Origin: Mesoplasma coleopterae
GTDB lineage: Bacteria; Bacillota_I; Bacilli_A; Mycoplasmatales; Mycoplasmataceae
Direction of reading: 5' to 3'
DNA length: 64,000 bases
Assembly: GCF_002804245.1 (NCBI RefSeq)
Contig: NZ_CP024968.1
Span: 620,001 to 684,000 of the forward strand
Of this stretch, positions 13,323 through 40,812 are shown piece by piece. A program made the position numbers and the translations under genes. The stretch's first letter is position 1, and each line of letters starts with the position of its first letter. The notes under the pieces are model-generated. The model did not search any database. It worked only from the letters and a program-made list of their open reading frames with translations, and was not told where the DNA came from.

Positions 13323-15488
13323 TTAAATTACACATGCATCACATTCATAGTTTTCACTATCTTCTAATACTTCTTGTCTTACACGTACGTAGTAGATTGA
13401 TGCACATTTTTTCTTGAATGCATGAATGTATGCTTTGTTTAAGTCACGAGTTGTAACTTGGTCTGTCATAAATAAAGTTAATGAAATAGCTTGATCAACA
13501 TGTTGTTGAGCTGCAGCAACAATATCAATAATTGGCATTGGCCCAACTTCATATGCTCCTAAAGCATAGTAAGCCATGTTATCAAAATTGATGTTGTATG
13601 CTGGAACGTAAATTCTACCTAATTTACCTTCTTTACGTACTTCAATTGGTGCTACAACTGGTTGTAAGCTTGGAGTACATGAAGATAAGTAACTAATTGA
13701 TCCTGTAGGAGCAACAGCCATTAAGTGTGAATTTGCGATTCCATCTTTTTTAATTAATTCAACTAATTCAATTCAATCTTGTTGAGTTGGAATAGTTACA
13801 TTGTATTGGGCAAATAATTCTTTAACTCTTTGTGTTTCAGGAGTTCATTTATCTTCTGCACATTTAGTATATTTATTAAATCAACTTCCATCAGCAAATT
13901 GTGATGTTTCAAATCCATCAAATGTGTCATATTGTAAAGCCAATTTATGTGATGCTTTAAATGCATTATATGCCATTGCATAGAAGAACATATTTGTAAA
14001 ATCAACAGCTTCAATTGAATTATATCAAATAAAGTTTGTTGCTAAGAAACCATGTAAGTTCATTGCTCCCAAACCGACAGCATGATTTTTTTTGTTTCCT
14101 TGTTGAATTGAAGGAGCACTACTTAAATCACTTGTTCTTGAAACTAAATCTAAAGCATTAATTGAGTGTTCAATAACTTCTCCAAATTCAGCTCCACTTT
14201 CCATTACTTTAGCAATGTTAAGACTTCCTAAATTACAACAGATATCGTCTCCCATAGTTTTAAAACTTAAATCATCGTTAAAAGTACTTGGTGTTGAAAC
14301 TTGAGCAATTTCACTACACAAGTTACTCATAACAATTCTTCCAGTTGCTGCATGAGCATTGTTATTATTTACAGTATCATCAAACAAGATGTATGGGTAT
14401 CCACTTTCAAAATGCAATTCTGCAACAGTTAAAAAGAATTTTCTTGCATTAATATAAGTTTTTTTGATGTTTGGGTTTTCAATTAAATTATAGTATTCTT
14501 TAGTAATTGAAATATCTGACATTGCTTTTCCATATTCTCTTTCAACATCATAAGGACTGAATAAAGCCATTTCTTCATTTTTTTGAGCTAATTCAAAAGT
14601 AATATCTGGAATAACTAATCCTAATGATAATGATTTAATACGAATTTTTTCATCAGCATTTTCTCTTTTTGTGTCTAAGAATGACATAACATCTGGGTGG
14701 TGAGCATTTAAGTAAACTGCACCAGCACCTTGTCTTTGTCCTAGTTGGTTAGCATATGAGAATGAATCTTCTAAAATTTTCATAACAGGGATAACACCAG
14801 TTGCCTGGTTAGCAATGTGTTTAATTGGTGCTCCTAATTCACGTAGATTAGTTAAACATAAAGCAACTCCACCACCTCGTTTTGATAATTGCAATGATGT
14901 TGTAACAGCACGACAAATTGATTCCATGTTGTCTTCTACTCTTAATAGATAACAAGAAACATATTCACCACGTTGTTTTTTACCAGCATTTAAAAATGTT
15001 GGTGTAGCTGGTTGGAATCTTCCTAACATTAATTGTCTTAATGTTTTTTTTGCAGATTCAAAATTTCCATTTCCCAAGAATAAAGCATTCATAACTGCTC
15101 TATCTTCAAAATTTTCCAAATATTTTTGACCATCAAATGTTTTTAAACCATATGAATTATAAAACTTCATCGCTCCCATAAAACTTGGAAATTCACGATT
15201 GAATCCATAAGCGATATCAGTAATTTCTTCAATTTGTTCAATACTATATTTGTTAATAACTTCTTCTTCATAGTATCCATTAGAAACTAAGTATTCAATT
15301 CTTTCTTTAACTGAATCGAACTTTACTAATCTTGGTTCAACATGATGTTTTAAGTAAGCTTTAGCAGCTTCTACATCTAGTTTAAAATTATCTGATCCAG
15401 CAGCTAATATTTTAGCTCTGGCATTTAACGTAACATATTCATCACTTTCTTCTGTACCAGATAATGTATTTATTTTTTTATCTTCCAT
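13323..15488 (-). CDS. nrdE: Class Ib ribonucleotide reductase, large subunit NrdE
   Basis: Catalytic subunit that reduces ribonucleoside diphosphates using a radical passed from NrdF. Of 721 aa, the active-site features visible are the cysteine in GEYVSCYLL, the NLCSEIAQ motif with radical Cys and Glu, the second redox Cys in [11 protein letters not shown], and the C-terminal electron-relay pair in [15 protein letters not shown] marks the substrate phosphate site. The start is the ATG of MEDKK behind GAGG, lying only two bases from the nrdI stop. It is the last gene of nrdF-nrdI-nrdE. Confidence 0.97.
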
Positions 15489-15490
15489 CT

Positions 15491-15946
15491 TTATTTTCCT
15501 CAAAAGTCTTTCAATATTTTATTAATTTTGTCTACGTCACCTTGAGTTCCCAATAATTCAAATTGATATAACAATGGAACATTAAGTTTTTTTGATAAAA
15601 TTGGTCCTGCCATTGCAAAAGTATTACCAAAGTTAGTATTACCTGAAGCAATTACGCCCCTACAAAAACTTCTGTTGTTTTCATTGTTTAAAAATTTAAT
15701 AACTTGTTTTGGAACTGCGCCTGAAGTAAATTCTCCACCACCACTGTATGTTGGAGTTATTAATACATAATCAGAATCAACAATAATTTCTTCTTCTAAT
15801 TCGTATGGTATTCTTGAATTTTCAACACCAAGTTTTTGAATAAATCTATGTGTATTGTTTGATATTGATGAAAAGTAAACAACATGTACTTTTCCTGTAG
15901 GTTTAACAATTTCTTCACCCGAAACTAATTTAATATCATCATGCAT
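15491..15946 (-). CDS. nrdI: Flavodoxin-like ribonucleotide reductase activator NrdI
   Basis: A 151-aa flavoprotein. The FMN phosphate loop is [14 protein letters not shown], and TPTYSGGG and ASGNTNFGN line the flavin site. In class Ib systems NrdI supplies superoxide to activate NrdF. In the metal-free NrdF group it is thought to support hydroxylation of the radical tyrosine. The last codons include a UGA Trp (KDFWGK). It starts three bases after nrdF, which implies co-translation. Confidence 0.95.
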
Positions 15947-15949
15947 AAT

Positions 15950-16972
15950 TTAAAACTCCCAATCTTCGTCTTCTGTTTCTTCTGAAACACCCATAATGTA
16001 TGATGAACCATTTCCTGAGAAGAAATCGTGGTTTTCATCAGCTCTAGCAGATAACTGAGTAAAGATTTCTGGTTCTATTTTTGTTTCTTCTTCTGTGAAT
16101 GGTGAATCATAACCTAAATTTTGCAAGAATTTACCTGCGTTGTACACACTGAATCTGATTGCATCTTCAGCAAGTCCAAAACCATCATATAATTCTTTTA
16201 AATAAGCTGTTTCTAAATCAATTAGTTCGTATAATAATTTAAATACGAAGTCTTTCATTTCGGCTTGTTTTTCTGGAGAAAGTTTAGCTACTTTCTTTTG
16301 GTATTTGTATCCACTGTAGTAGTTGTGAATAACTTTATCTCTTAAAATTAATCTAATAATATCTGAAGTATTAGGCAATTTACCTCTAGCTGATAGATAG
16401 AATGGTAAATAGAAACCTCCATATAGTAAGAAGCCTGGCATTAATGCTGCTGCAACTTTTGATTTTAAAGGATCATCATTAACATAGTAAGGAATTAATG
16501 CTTTTGCTCTTTCTTGTAATGTTTCTGTATTAATAACTCATTCATGAGCTTCTTCAATTTGTTCACTTGAACATAATGTTGAGAAAATTGATCCATATGA
16601 TCTAGCATGAACAGCAACCATGAATGCAAAGTTTGTATAAATAACTTGTTCGTGATCTGTTAATGAGTTAGGTACTTGTGCAACGTCTCCAACTGTTGCT
16701 TGGATTGTATCTAATAAAGTCAATCCAGTAAAAGTTCTCGTAATTAATTCTTGTCATTCTGGTGTTAATGTTCTTCATGATGTTAAATCATTTGAAACTG
16801 GTATTTTTTCTGGTAATCAGAAGTTTTGTGTGATTCTATTTCATACTTCTAAATCTTTTTCATCGTTTACTACGTTTCAATTAACTGAACGCATTTTACC
16901 CTTGAATCCTTGTTGCGCATATTCAATAGGCGAAACAGATTCGTTATAATATTGGTTTTTTATTTTAGCCAT
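15950..16972 (-). CDS. nrdF: Ribonucleotide reductase small subunit NrdF, metal-free (VPK) type
   Basis: Radical-generating subunit, 340 aa. Asp88 (LLDTIQ), His122 (AVHARSY), His216 and radical Tyr126 are kept, but the three glutamates that bind metal in normal NrdF are Val119 (FMVAVH), Pro179 (LMPGFL) and Lys213 (RDKVIH). This is the VPK pattern of the R2e subclass characterised in 2018 from Mesoplasma florum, where Tyr126 is hydroxylated to a stable DOPA radical and no metal is needed. The C-terminal anchor ETEDEDWEF for NrdE is intact. It is first in the operon, 111 bases downstream of the riboswitch. Confidence 0.95.
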
Positions 16973-17044
16973 ATATATCCTTTCGTTTTTTCTCTATTAT
17001 AAAAGTCAACTAAATAAAAAAGTTTCTTTTTTGTCATTAGGACG

Positions 17045-17072
17045 TAAAAAGAAACTTTAATTAATATAAAGA
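17045..17072 (-). terminator. Putative intrinsic terminator of the riboswitch expression platform
   Basis: Minus-strand CTTTA-TATTAAT-TAAAG followed by TTTCTTTTT lies between the aptamer and nrdF. A weak stem with a U-run at this position suits a ligand-controlled attenuator, with the 3' strand of P1 as the switching element. The pairing partners were not folded computationally. Confidence 0.5.
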
Positions 17073-17082
17073 GTGGTTTTTC

Positions 17083-17146
17083 ACTTATAGTCTTCAAATT
17101 GGTTTGAAGGCGGGGTCAGTAGCCCATTATGCTACCCTGTATAAGT
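17083..17146 (-). promoter_or_regulatory. 2'-deoxyguanosine riboswitch (2'-dG-I) controlling nrdFIE
   Basis: Purine-type aptamer. P1 is ACTTATA/TATAAGT; P2 is GTAGC/GCTAC around loop ATAATGG; P3 is CTTCAAA/TTTGAAG. The GACTATAAGT 3' junction keeps the cytosine that pairs the ligand. The J2/3 strand reads TGACCCCGCC rather than the TTTCTACC of guanine aptamers, matching the M. florum variants shown in 2007 to prefer 2'-deoxyguanosine. It lies upstream of ribonucleotide reductase, the location of the type I-A element. Expected action is to stop transcription when 2'-dG is plentiful. Confidence 0.92.
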
Positions 17147-17228
17147 TTCTTTTATATTCAGTTGTAAGATAATAATAATTTTTTATTTTTTAAAAATCTT
17201 AAAATTAACTATTGATTTTATTTTTTTT

Positions 17229-35703: not shown

Positions 35704-36507
35704 TTAATTTGTAATTTCATTTTTTACATTTTTCATGTAAGTAATTAATTCTCTTTTAGTTAAATCTCTTAAGTTAACTTCTTGTAATTTTTTTGATAAG
35801 TTCTTTTCGATTGCAACACTTCTTAATTTATTTGAATATTTTTGTAACTCATATCTTTTTTCACTTATTTTATCTGAACCATCTATTTTAGATCTTTCTG
35901 ATATTGAAAGTTTTTTATCTTTCTTAAATTCTATTTGATCTTCATTCAATTCTTTTTCATACTTTTCTTCCATTTTTGAAATAAACATTGTTGCTGATAC
36001 TTCAGAAATTTTAGAGTCTTTTTTAGAATTAATTTTTCTTGCTTTTCCATTTACATTATTTGACTTTTTAATTTCATCTTGTTGTTTAGAAATACTTTTA
36101 ATTTTTAATATTTTATTATCTTTAAAAAATTCATAAATGATAAAACCAAGAATAAATGCAATACCAACTATTAAAACTCAGTTAAATAGTAAGTCTCAAA
36201 AAATTGGAAGCAAAAATATATATCCGCCATTTACACTGTATAATAAATTAAATTCTGAAAAAGACTTTGAACCTATTGGCCCTGTAAAAAAAGAACTTGT
36301 TATTTTTCCATTAGCAAACCAACTATGATCTGTTCTGTTTACTAAATTAACTTGTGATTCAAATATTTCTTTTCATTCGCTAGTTCCATTTATAGCTTGA
36401 TTTATCATTTTAAACATAAATGCTAAAATTAATAAAATAACCATGATTACTAATCAAAAAAAGATATTTTTAAATTTATTCTGTTTTATTTTTATCATTG
36501 TTTTCAT
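35704..36507 (-). CDS. Two-helix membrane protein with charged coiled tail
   Basis: A 267-aa protein not assigned to a family. The first membrane segment lies at about residues 15-35 and the second near 110-135 (LLFNWVLIVGIAFILGFIIY); the loop between carries RTDHSWFANGK. The C-terminal half is highly charged and helical (KMEEKYEKELNEDQ, KRYELQKYSNKLR) and probably cytoplasmic. It is first in a two-gene transcript with DUF285 protein 2 and has a TTGACA promoter. A decayed copy lies beside DUF285 protein 1, so the two genes belong together evolutionarily; an anchoring or export partnership is only a guess. Confidence 0.72.
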
Positions 36508-39574: not shown

Positions 39575-40195
39575 TTAAATCTCCTTCTTAATTTTTTCTA
39601 TAGTTCTAATAACTTCTTCAACTTTCTCATCTAAGTTGTTGTTGTTAGCATCAATAACTAAAAATGGAAAATCATTTTTGTGTTCTTGGTAATATTCTTC
39701 ATATGATTCATTTAAAATTTTCCAGTATTCTTTATCGATGCTTAACTCTGCTGATCTTCCACGTTCATTAATTCTTCTAATTGAAGTTTCATCAGAAACT
39801 TTTAAGTAAACAACTAAATCAAATTTTAATCTGTCGTTTGGATATTTCAAGTTTTCAGAAACTACATATTGAAAGAAATCGCAATATGTTTTGTAATCTG
39901 TATCATCAACATTCCCCATTTTATGACCAACATTCATGAATATTGGATCCTCAATAATTGTTCTATCAAAAATTTTGTTTTTTAAATCTTTCGCTGCAAA
40001 TAATTGTTTTGATCTTGCTGTTAACATAAATATTTGCATTCTGAAAGCATAAGCTTTAATATCTTTATAATAATTTTCAAAGTATGGGTTTTCATCGATT
40101 GGTTCGGGAAAAATTTCATAATTTAATCTGTTTGATAATTCCTGAGAAATTGATGATTTTCCAGCTCCAACTGTTCCAAAAATAGCTATTTTCAT
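39575..40195 (-). CDS. Deoxynucleoside kinase (copy 1)
   Basis: Phosphorylates salvaged deoxynucleosides with ATP. The 206-aa enzyme has P-loop GTVGAGKSS, FPEPIDENPY, the substrate motif DRTIIEDPIF, RINERGRSAE (LID) and ends DANNNNLDEKVEEVI. It resembles the deoxyadenosine/deoxyguanosine kinases of mollicutes and Firmicutes. No UGA codon. It lies three bases after a paralogue, so the pair are tandem duplicates with possibly different base preference. It fits with the 2'-deoxyguanosine riboswitch on nrd in this window. Confidence 0.92.
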   Translation of the reverse strand: MKIAIFGTVGAGKSSISQELSNRLNYEIFPEPIDENPYFENYYKDIKAYAFRMQIFMLTARSKQLFAAKDLKNKIFDRTIIEDPIFMNVGHKMGNVDDTDYKTYCDFFQYVVSENLKYPNDRLKFDLVVYLKVSDETSIRRINERGRSAELSIDKEYWKILNESYEEYYQEHKNDFPFLVIDANNNNLDEKVEEVIRTIEKIKKEI

Positions 40196-40197
40196 AA

Positions 40198-40812
40198 TTA
40201 TTCCTTTAATCTTTCTATTTCTTTCAAAATTTCATTTACTTTAGCTTCTAAACTATCATTATTTGCGTCAATAACAATAAATGGTAATTTATCTTTGTAT
40301 TCTTGATATTGTTTTTCATATAAGGAATTTAAATTCATTCAAAATTCATTATCAATTTTTAATTCAGTTTCTCTTGCTCTTTCATGTATTCTTTTAAGAC
40401 AAACTTCATTGCTTGCTTTTAAATATATAACTAAATCAAAATTTATTTTATTTGATGAATTTGCCATTGTTTCTAAAATAACATTATTAAAGAAACTTAA
40501 ATATGTGGCAAAATCTAAATCAGTAATTAAACCATTTTGATTTTTTAACTTCATAAAAATTGGATCTTCTATAATAGTTCTATCAAATATTATATTGTCT
40601 TGATTTTTTGTCTCATACATTTGTTCAGCTCTAAGAGTTAACATAAATATTTGCATTTTAAATGCGTTTTGAGAAACATCTTTATAAAAATCATCAAAAT
40701 ATGGATTCTTATGAATTGGTTCCAAAATTAAGTCATAATTTAAAGTTTTCGATAAAGCTTTTGCAAGGGTTGTTTTACCAGCTCCTGTAGTTCCAAAAAT
40801 TGCAATTCTCAT
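40198..40812 (-). CDS. Deoxynucleoside kinase (copy 2)
   Basis: A 204-aa paralogue of the next gene: P-loop GTTGAGKTT, EPIHKNPYFDDFYKDV, DRTIIEDPIFM, RIHERARETELKI and ending VIDANNDSLEAKVNEIL. One UGA Trp (NEFWMNL) lies where copy 1 has DKEYWKI. The shared EPI, DRT and ERxRxxEL motifs put both in the dNK/dGK/dAK family. Substrate choice cannot be read from sequence by eye. Confidence 0.9.

Follow-up and report, generated by a model that had tools for sequence, protein, structure and literature searches.

The leader of the nrdFIE operon in Mesoplasma coleopterae contains what is, with very little doubt, the orthologue of the 2'-deoxyguanosine (2'-dG-I) riboswitch known from Mesoplasma florum; as a transcriptional OFF switch, it would lower nrdFIE expression when 2'-deoxyguanosine is plentiful. 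The element is already known, in the sense that it is an orthologue of the 2'-dG-I type example. The M. florum riboswitch (RF01510) goes back to Kim, Roth and Breaker 2007, as cited in PMC9295807 and PMC12268651, and it lies before the reductase beta-subunit gene, where it acts via transcription termination (PMC8872408, PMC5838219, PMC12268651). The stretch of M. coleopterae DNA that was analysed, called the window here, is 64,000 nucleotides long, and the features of the nrd leader and its genes are collected in the table below with their window positions.

The aptamer, when the window was searched with cmscan, matches the Rfam model 2dG-I (RF01510) end to end, over model positions 1-63 of 63, with a score of 88.7 bits (E 3.2e-18) where the gathering score is 51 bits. 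The guanine/adenine model RF00167 gave no match at the nrd site even at E <= 10, its two matches in the genome being at 489659 and 58391, and the 2dG-II model RF03165 gave no match anywhere in the genome at E <= 1. Assignment of the nrd site to either of these classes was rejected: the purine class calls for more than 37 bits together with U51 and U22-A52, where the site has C58 and C31-G59, and the 2'-dG-II class calls for more than 60 bits. Other Rfam models, SpR14, MIR781 and SNORA32 among them, match the leader at levels far under their gathering scores that resemble chance. As for the other purine aptamers of the genome, C1:489659 (L015) has U at the ligand-pairing position and is adenine-like, and C1:58409 (L012) is guanine-like and lies before an hpt-like gene.

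The published pocket of the M. florum switch is listed in PMC8872408, which also describes C58 as critical in the choice between nucleoside and nucleobase. With the first base of the M. coleopterae aptamer numbered as A24, a numbering fitted to that list, all of the published pocket nucleotides are present (A30, C31, C56, C58, G59, C80 and U81; 7/7), and J2/3 reads GACCCC-G. The case for the 2'-dG class is made by this fit of the pocket nucleotides and not by the family score, although model score, pocket, stem covariation and reductase gene context all agree on membership of 2'-dG-I. An earlier reading made from the letters of the window (the sequence-only reading) had placed a 2'-dG-class aptamer before nrdFIE, with an altered J2/3 and a retained ligand-pairing cytosine, and had proposed as its check a better score with 2dG-I than with the purine families; the full-length RF01510 score, the empty RF00167 search, the Pfam gene order (nrdF, nrdI, nrdE) and the presence of C80 as that cytosine all bear it out. 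Its distance of 111 bases to nrdF needs correction, the true gap to the ATG being 110 bases (17082..16973). The class, gene context and feedback logic that it proposed are likewise supported, whilst the identity and affinity of the ligand, and the regulation in vivo, are presumed from the work on M. florum.

Features of the nrdFIE leader and operon of M. coleopterae (window positions)
Feature	Position	Strand	Evidence or remark
2'-dG-I aptamer (P1, P2, P3)	17083..17146	-	RF01510 match, fold, compensatory changes; equals 24-87 in published M. florum numbering
J2/3 and start of P3, UGACCCCGCCUU	17107..17118	-	Sequence; C56 = 17114, C58 = 17112, G59 = 17111
J3/1: C80 = 17090 (predicted pairing with ligand guanine), U81 = 17089	17089..17090	-	Sequence, PMC8872408
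Antiterminator 5' strand (P strand), overlapping the P1 5' strand, AAAAGAAACUU	17143..17153	-	11 unbroken pairs, -10.6 kcal/mol duplex
Switching (T) strand, AAGUUUCUUUU; partner is the P strand or the terminator 3' strand	17047..17057	-	Pairing, folds, conservation
Intrinsic terminator hairpin (T and H strands)	17019..17058	-	z = -5.17; U-tract 17018..17011; 8 orthologous leaders
nrdF, class I ribonucleotide reductase R2, by its residues metal-free class Ie (V/P/K variant)	15950..16972	-	PF00268; PDB 6gp2; V/P/K
nrdI, flavodoxin-like activator of NrdF	15491..15946	-	PF07972
nrdE, ribonucleotide reductase large subunit	13323..15503	-	PF02867; sole PF02867 match in the genome

The minimum-free-energy fold of the aptamer forms P1 (7 bp), P2 (6 bp) and P3 (7 bp), the three stems that the sequence-only reading had drawn. 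Folding energy by itself does not set the aptamer apart (z = -1.37), and because of this the structural evidence for the aptamer is comparative. Among 8 orthologous leaders, 7/20 aptamer pairs have changed on both sides, a count equalled in 0/500 shuffles, and standard pairs occupy 96.9% of the aptamer pair cells, compared with at most 41% when the partner strand is slid. Named relatives among the genomes of the analysis are M. florum L1 (G159), M. tabanidae (G162), M. chauliocola (G157), M. entomophilum TAC (G158), Entomoplasma melaleucae (G161) and M. grammopterae (G160). When named genomes were scanned with a DNA pattern, M. grammopterae was the only match, and records near the window's genome may lie outside that scan.

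The aptamer before nrdF in M. florum L1 (L049) is identical to that of M. coleopterae at 62/64 bases, with the same pocket and the same controlled gene; one of the two differences is found in loop L3 and the other turns a P3 U-G into U-A. The leaders share the P-A-T-H layout with near-identical strand positions, and differ slightly in the terminator loop and the downstream flank. Guanine/adenine riboswitches (RF00167) have in common with the nrd aptamer the three-stem fold and the ligand-pairing J3/1 pyrimidine, but possess U51 and U22-A52 in place of C58 and C31-G59. The 2'-dG-II class (RF03165) resembles it in the C at the nucleoside-selecting position and in the C pairing with guanine, but has U-A at positions 31-59 where the nrd aptamer has C-G. 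The 2'-dG-II pocket (U22, C51) is closer to a set of U31-C58-A59 aptamers of other Mollicutes, which score with 2dG-I and are described below.

Three mutually exclusive helices can form in the leader, namely P1, an 11-pair antiterminator (17153..17143 with 17057..17047) and the terminator hairpin at 17058..17019. These helices, predicted from sequence and folding, and their conservation come from the present analysis, as do the leader sequence, the pocket nucleotides and the aptamer structure with its covariation. The hairpin, which had been noticed earlier as a possible terminator between aptamer and nrdF, is confirmed by its folding energy (-12.7 kcal/mol, z = -5.17, with 0/200 shuffles as good); UUUAUUUA follows it directly, and it is conserved in 8 species, across which its stem is 95% paired. 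A standard terminator scan missed it, probably owing to the A/T-rich stem with few G-C pairs, and it was found by folding with shuffles. The antiterminator is paired in 98.9% of cells in the 8 species but is near-invariant and without compensatory change, so that its support comes from complementarity and from analogy. A consensus promoter scan gave no hit on the minus strand, and the transcription start is therefore a guess.

At transcript lengths of 87, 125 and 151 nt, the predicted minimum-energy fold is the aptamer, the antiterminator and the terminator, respectively. This order is close to that published for M. florum, in which transcripts of 113-137 nt hold a stable antiterminator and strand H is synthesised at 139-144 nt (PMC5838219), and sequence and folding together predict transcriptional switching through competition between antiterminator and terminator. 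The aptamer would be transcribed first. Without ligand, P1 would open and its 5' strand, together with the preceding flank, would pair with the T strand to form the antiterminator, allowing RNA polymerase to read on into nrdFIE. With 2'-deoxyguanosine bound, P1 would retain its 5' strand and the T strand would pair with the H strand, such that transcription would end at the U-tract and nrdFIE would be off. Elsewhere in the leader, the 5' end CAACUGAAU (17164..17156, minus strand) is complementary, with one G-U, to AUUUAGUUG (17015..17007, minus strand) just past the terminator U-tract; this complementarity is kept in most of the 8 leaders, and similar CAACUUAAU starts lie before several other aptamers of the genome.

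An alternative explanation is that the nrd aptamer is a guanine sensor of the same fold that happens to score well with the 2dG-I model, in which case nrd would be repressed by guanine. A match to RF01510 does leave the ligand unfixed, because the family includes U58 aptamers. The model has ten sites in the 800,407-base M. coleopterae genome and is found in 35/320 genomes of the order, and in M. coleopterae it also scores the U58 leaders of guaA (L013, 70.8 bits) and of a gene for a PnrA-like nucleoside-lipoprotein (L014, 71.2 bits). These two aptamers are probably without 2'-dG specificity and sense guanine, a view that draws on what is reported for C58 and on the presence of U51 in guanine riboswitches, and the Rfam name 2dG-I overstates what a match means. 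Position 58 speaks against the guanine explanation. When 99 RF01510 aptamers were typed at positions 31, 58, 59 and 80, C58 was found in 11/11 nrdF leaders and U58 in 26/26 leaders of guaA (10), purine permease (12) and hpt (4), with the downstream ORFs called automatically, such that some starts are internal and three aptamers are without an ORF. Fisher's exact test gives 1.2e-9 for this split by gene, a value that overstates independence as the sequences are related. Moreover, positions 31 and 59 covary perfectly among the C58 aptamers, being C-G or U-A in 37/37 distinct sequences. Given that the nrd site has the C58 reported to select nucleoside over nucleobase (PMC8872408), and that its near-identical M. 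florum counterpart is described as sensing 2'-dG (PMC8872408, PMC12268651), guanine sensing at this site is considered very unlikely.

It is also highly improbable that the nrd element works through translation or mRNA stability instead of transcription termination. The leader does run for about 40 bases beyond the terminator and, in the genome G202, the partner of the T strand extends, as judged by eye, into the ribosome-binding site, so that other members may act on translation; however, the nrd hairpin is strong, is followed by its U-tract, and is kept in 8 species, and for the M. florum switch, control by transcription termination has been demonstrated (PMC5838219). That the nrd aptamer is present but has lost its switching is scarcely credible: whilst another aptamer of the same genome, at C1:49597, has a decayed-looking pocket, in all 8 species the nrd site has retained every pocket base, its stems and the two alternative helices, and compensatory changes are present.

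The R2 protein of M. florum has been shown to contain a metal-free DOPA radical. The structure of this class Ie protein (6gp2) is the best PDB match of M. coleopterae NrdF, end to end, and the two are a few substitutions apart and share V, P and K where three glutamates formerly stood; in M. coleopterae these residues are found in the motifs MVAVHARSY, MPGFLLYGG and RDKVIH. The replacement of three metal-binding glutamates by V/P/K or Q/S/K is what defines class Ie R2 proteins (PMC11846895), and on these residues M. coleopterae NrdF is assigned to the metal-free class Ie. Since searches of the genome gave a single large-subunit gene and a single NrdF match, nrdFIE is apparently the only reductase of its kind in the cell. 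No paper linking a 2'-dG riboswitch with a class Ie reductase was found, a result that reflects the literature covered as much as a gap. The genome also contains two adjacent deoxynucleoside kinase genes (PF01712; window 39593..40806, minus strand), which are likely duplicates, and because of these two predicted kinases 2'-deoxyguanosine is plausibly a salvage metabolite in M. coleopterae.

The C58 pocket is present at six M. coleopterae sites, the nrd leader and five within C1:36256..41538 (L011). These five aptamers, packed into 5.3 kb, each precede a lipoprotein gene and all have the C31-C58-G59-C80 pocket; those at 36256 and 40490 are identical. The first gene of the cluster encodes an endonuclease I domain (PF04231), and the last aptamer precedes an operon in which the gene for a solute-binding lipoprotein is accompanied by those for an ABC ATPase, two permeases and a ComEC-like metallo-hydrolase. 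Some of the further RF01510 sites may already be listed in the 2007 discovery paper. At L011:9754..12141 there is a gene for a 795-aa ABC transporter ATPase, in which about 430 residues are inserted between the N-terminal part and the signature motif region. A further RF01510 match over the cut-off, C1:49597 (L011:15598..15659), has a broken pocket, CACCUUCUU, without C58-G59; it precedes a DUF1904 gene and a dus-like gene, and is possibly decayed.

In genera outside the M. florum group, U31-C58-A59 aptamers are located before nrdF (G202, G204 and M. syrphidae), the B12-dependent reductase nrdJ (W. somnilux), an NrnA-type DHH nuclease (G201, W. somnilux), a PD-(D/E)XK nuclease (M. lactucae, a weak match) and PnrA-like nucleoside-binding lipoproteins (loci L027, L036, L037, L026, L034, L033, L068, L078, L084, L028, L100, L072 and others). 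RF03165 gave no match in the searched genomes that carry these aptamers, G204 being outside that search. Judged from the predicted functions of the genes, the common theme of those linked to C58 is the making, releasing and importing of deoxynucleosides.

The base at position 58 also differs between species at matching loci. The leader of the ABC-lipoprotein gene has U58 in M. florum (L055) and C58 in M. coleopterae (C1:41476, L011) and M. tabanidae (L047). The P3 and 5' flank of these aptamers are near-identical and the difference sits in the J1/2-P2-J2/3 half, which looks, from the alignment, to have been exchanged. The PnrA-like lipoprotein leader has C58 in M. tabanidae (L057) and U58 in the other aligned species (L062, L058, L063 and L014). 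Such differences at matching positions are predicted to be flips in ligand specificity between 2'-dG and guanine.

Taken as a whole, we lean slightly towards the view that the nrd switch belongs to a deoxyguanosine regulon spanning the M. coleopterae genome, whereby six C58 aptamers would respond to a common signal and shut down both deoxynucleotide synthesis (by the class Ie reductase) and the scavenging of outside material (endonuclease I, the other lipoproteins and the ABC operon with its ComEC-like hydrolase), and that C58/U58 flips at matching positions across related genera would allow ligand changes to be followed locus by locus. A well-studied switch is extended to a sister species of M. 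florum with all its working parts conserved, and two separate bodies of work, on the model 2'-dG switch and on the metal-free reductase under its control, are joined. Mesoplasma and its relatives carry the same fold dozens of times, with position 58 following gene function, providing a natural series for how an RNA changes its ligand from guanine to 2'-deoxyguanosine. It also leads to the testable claim that these small genomes may drive DNA-precursor synthesis and DNA scavenging by one signal.
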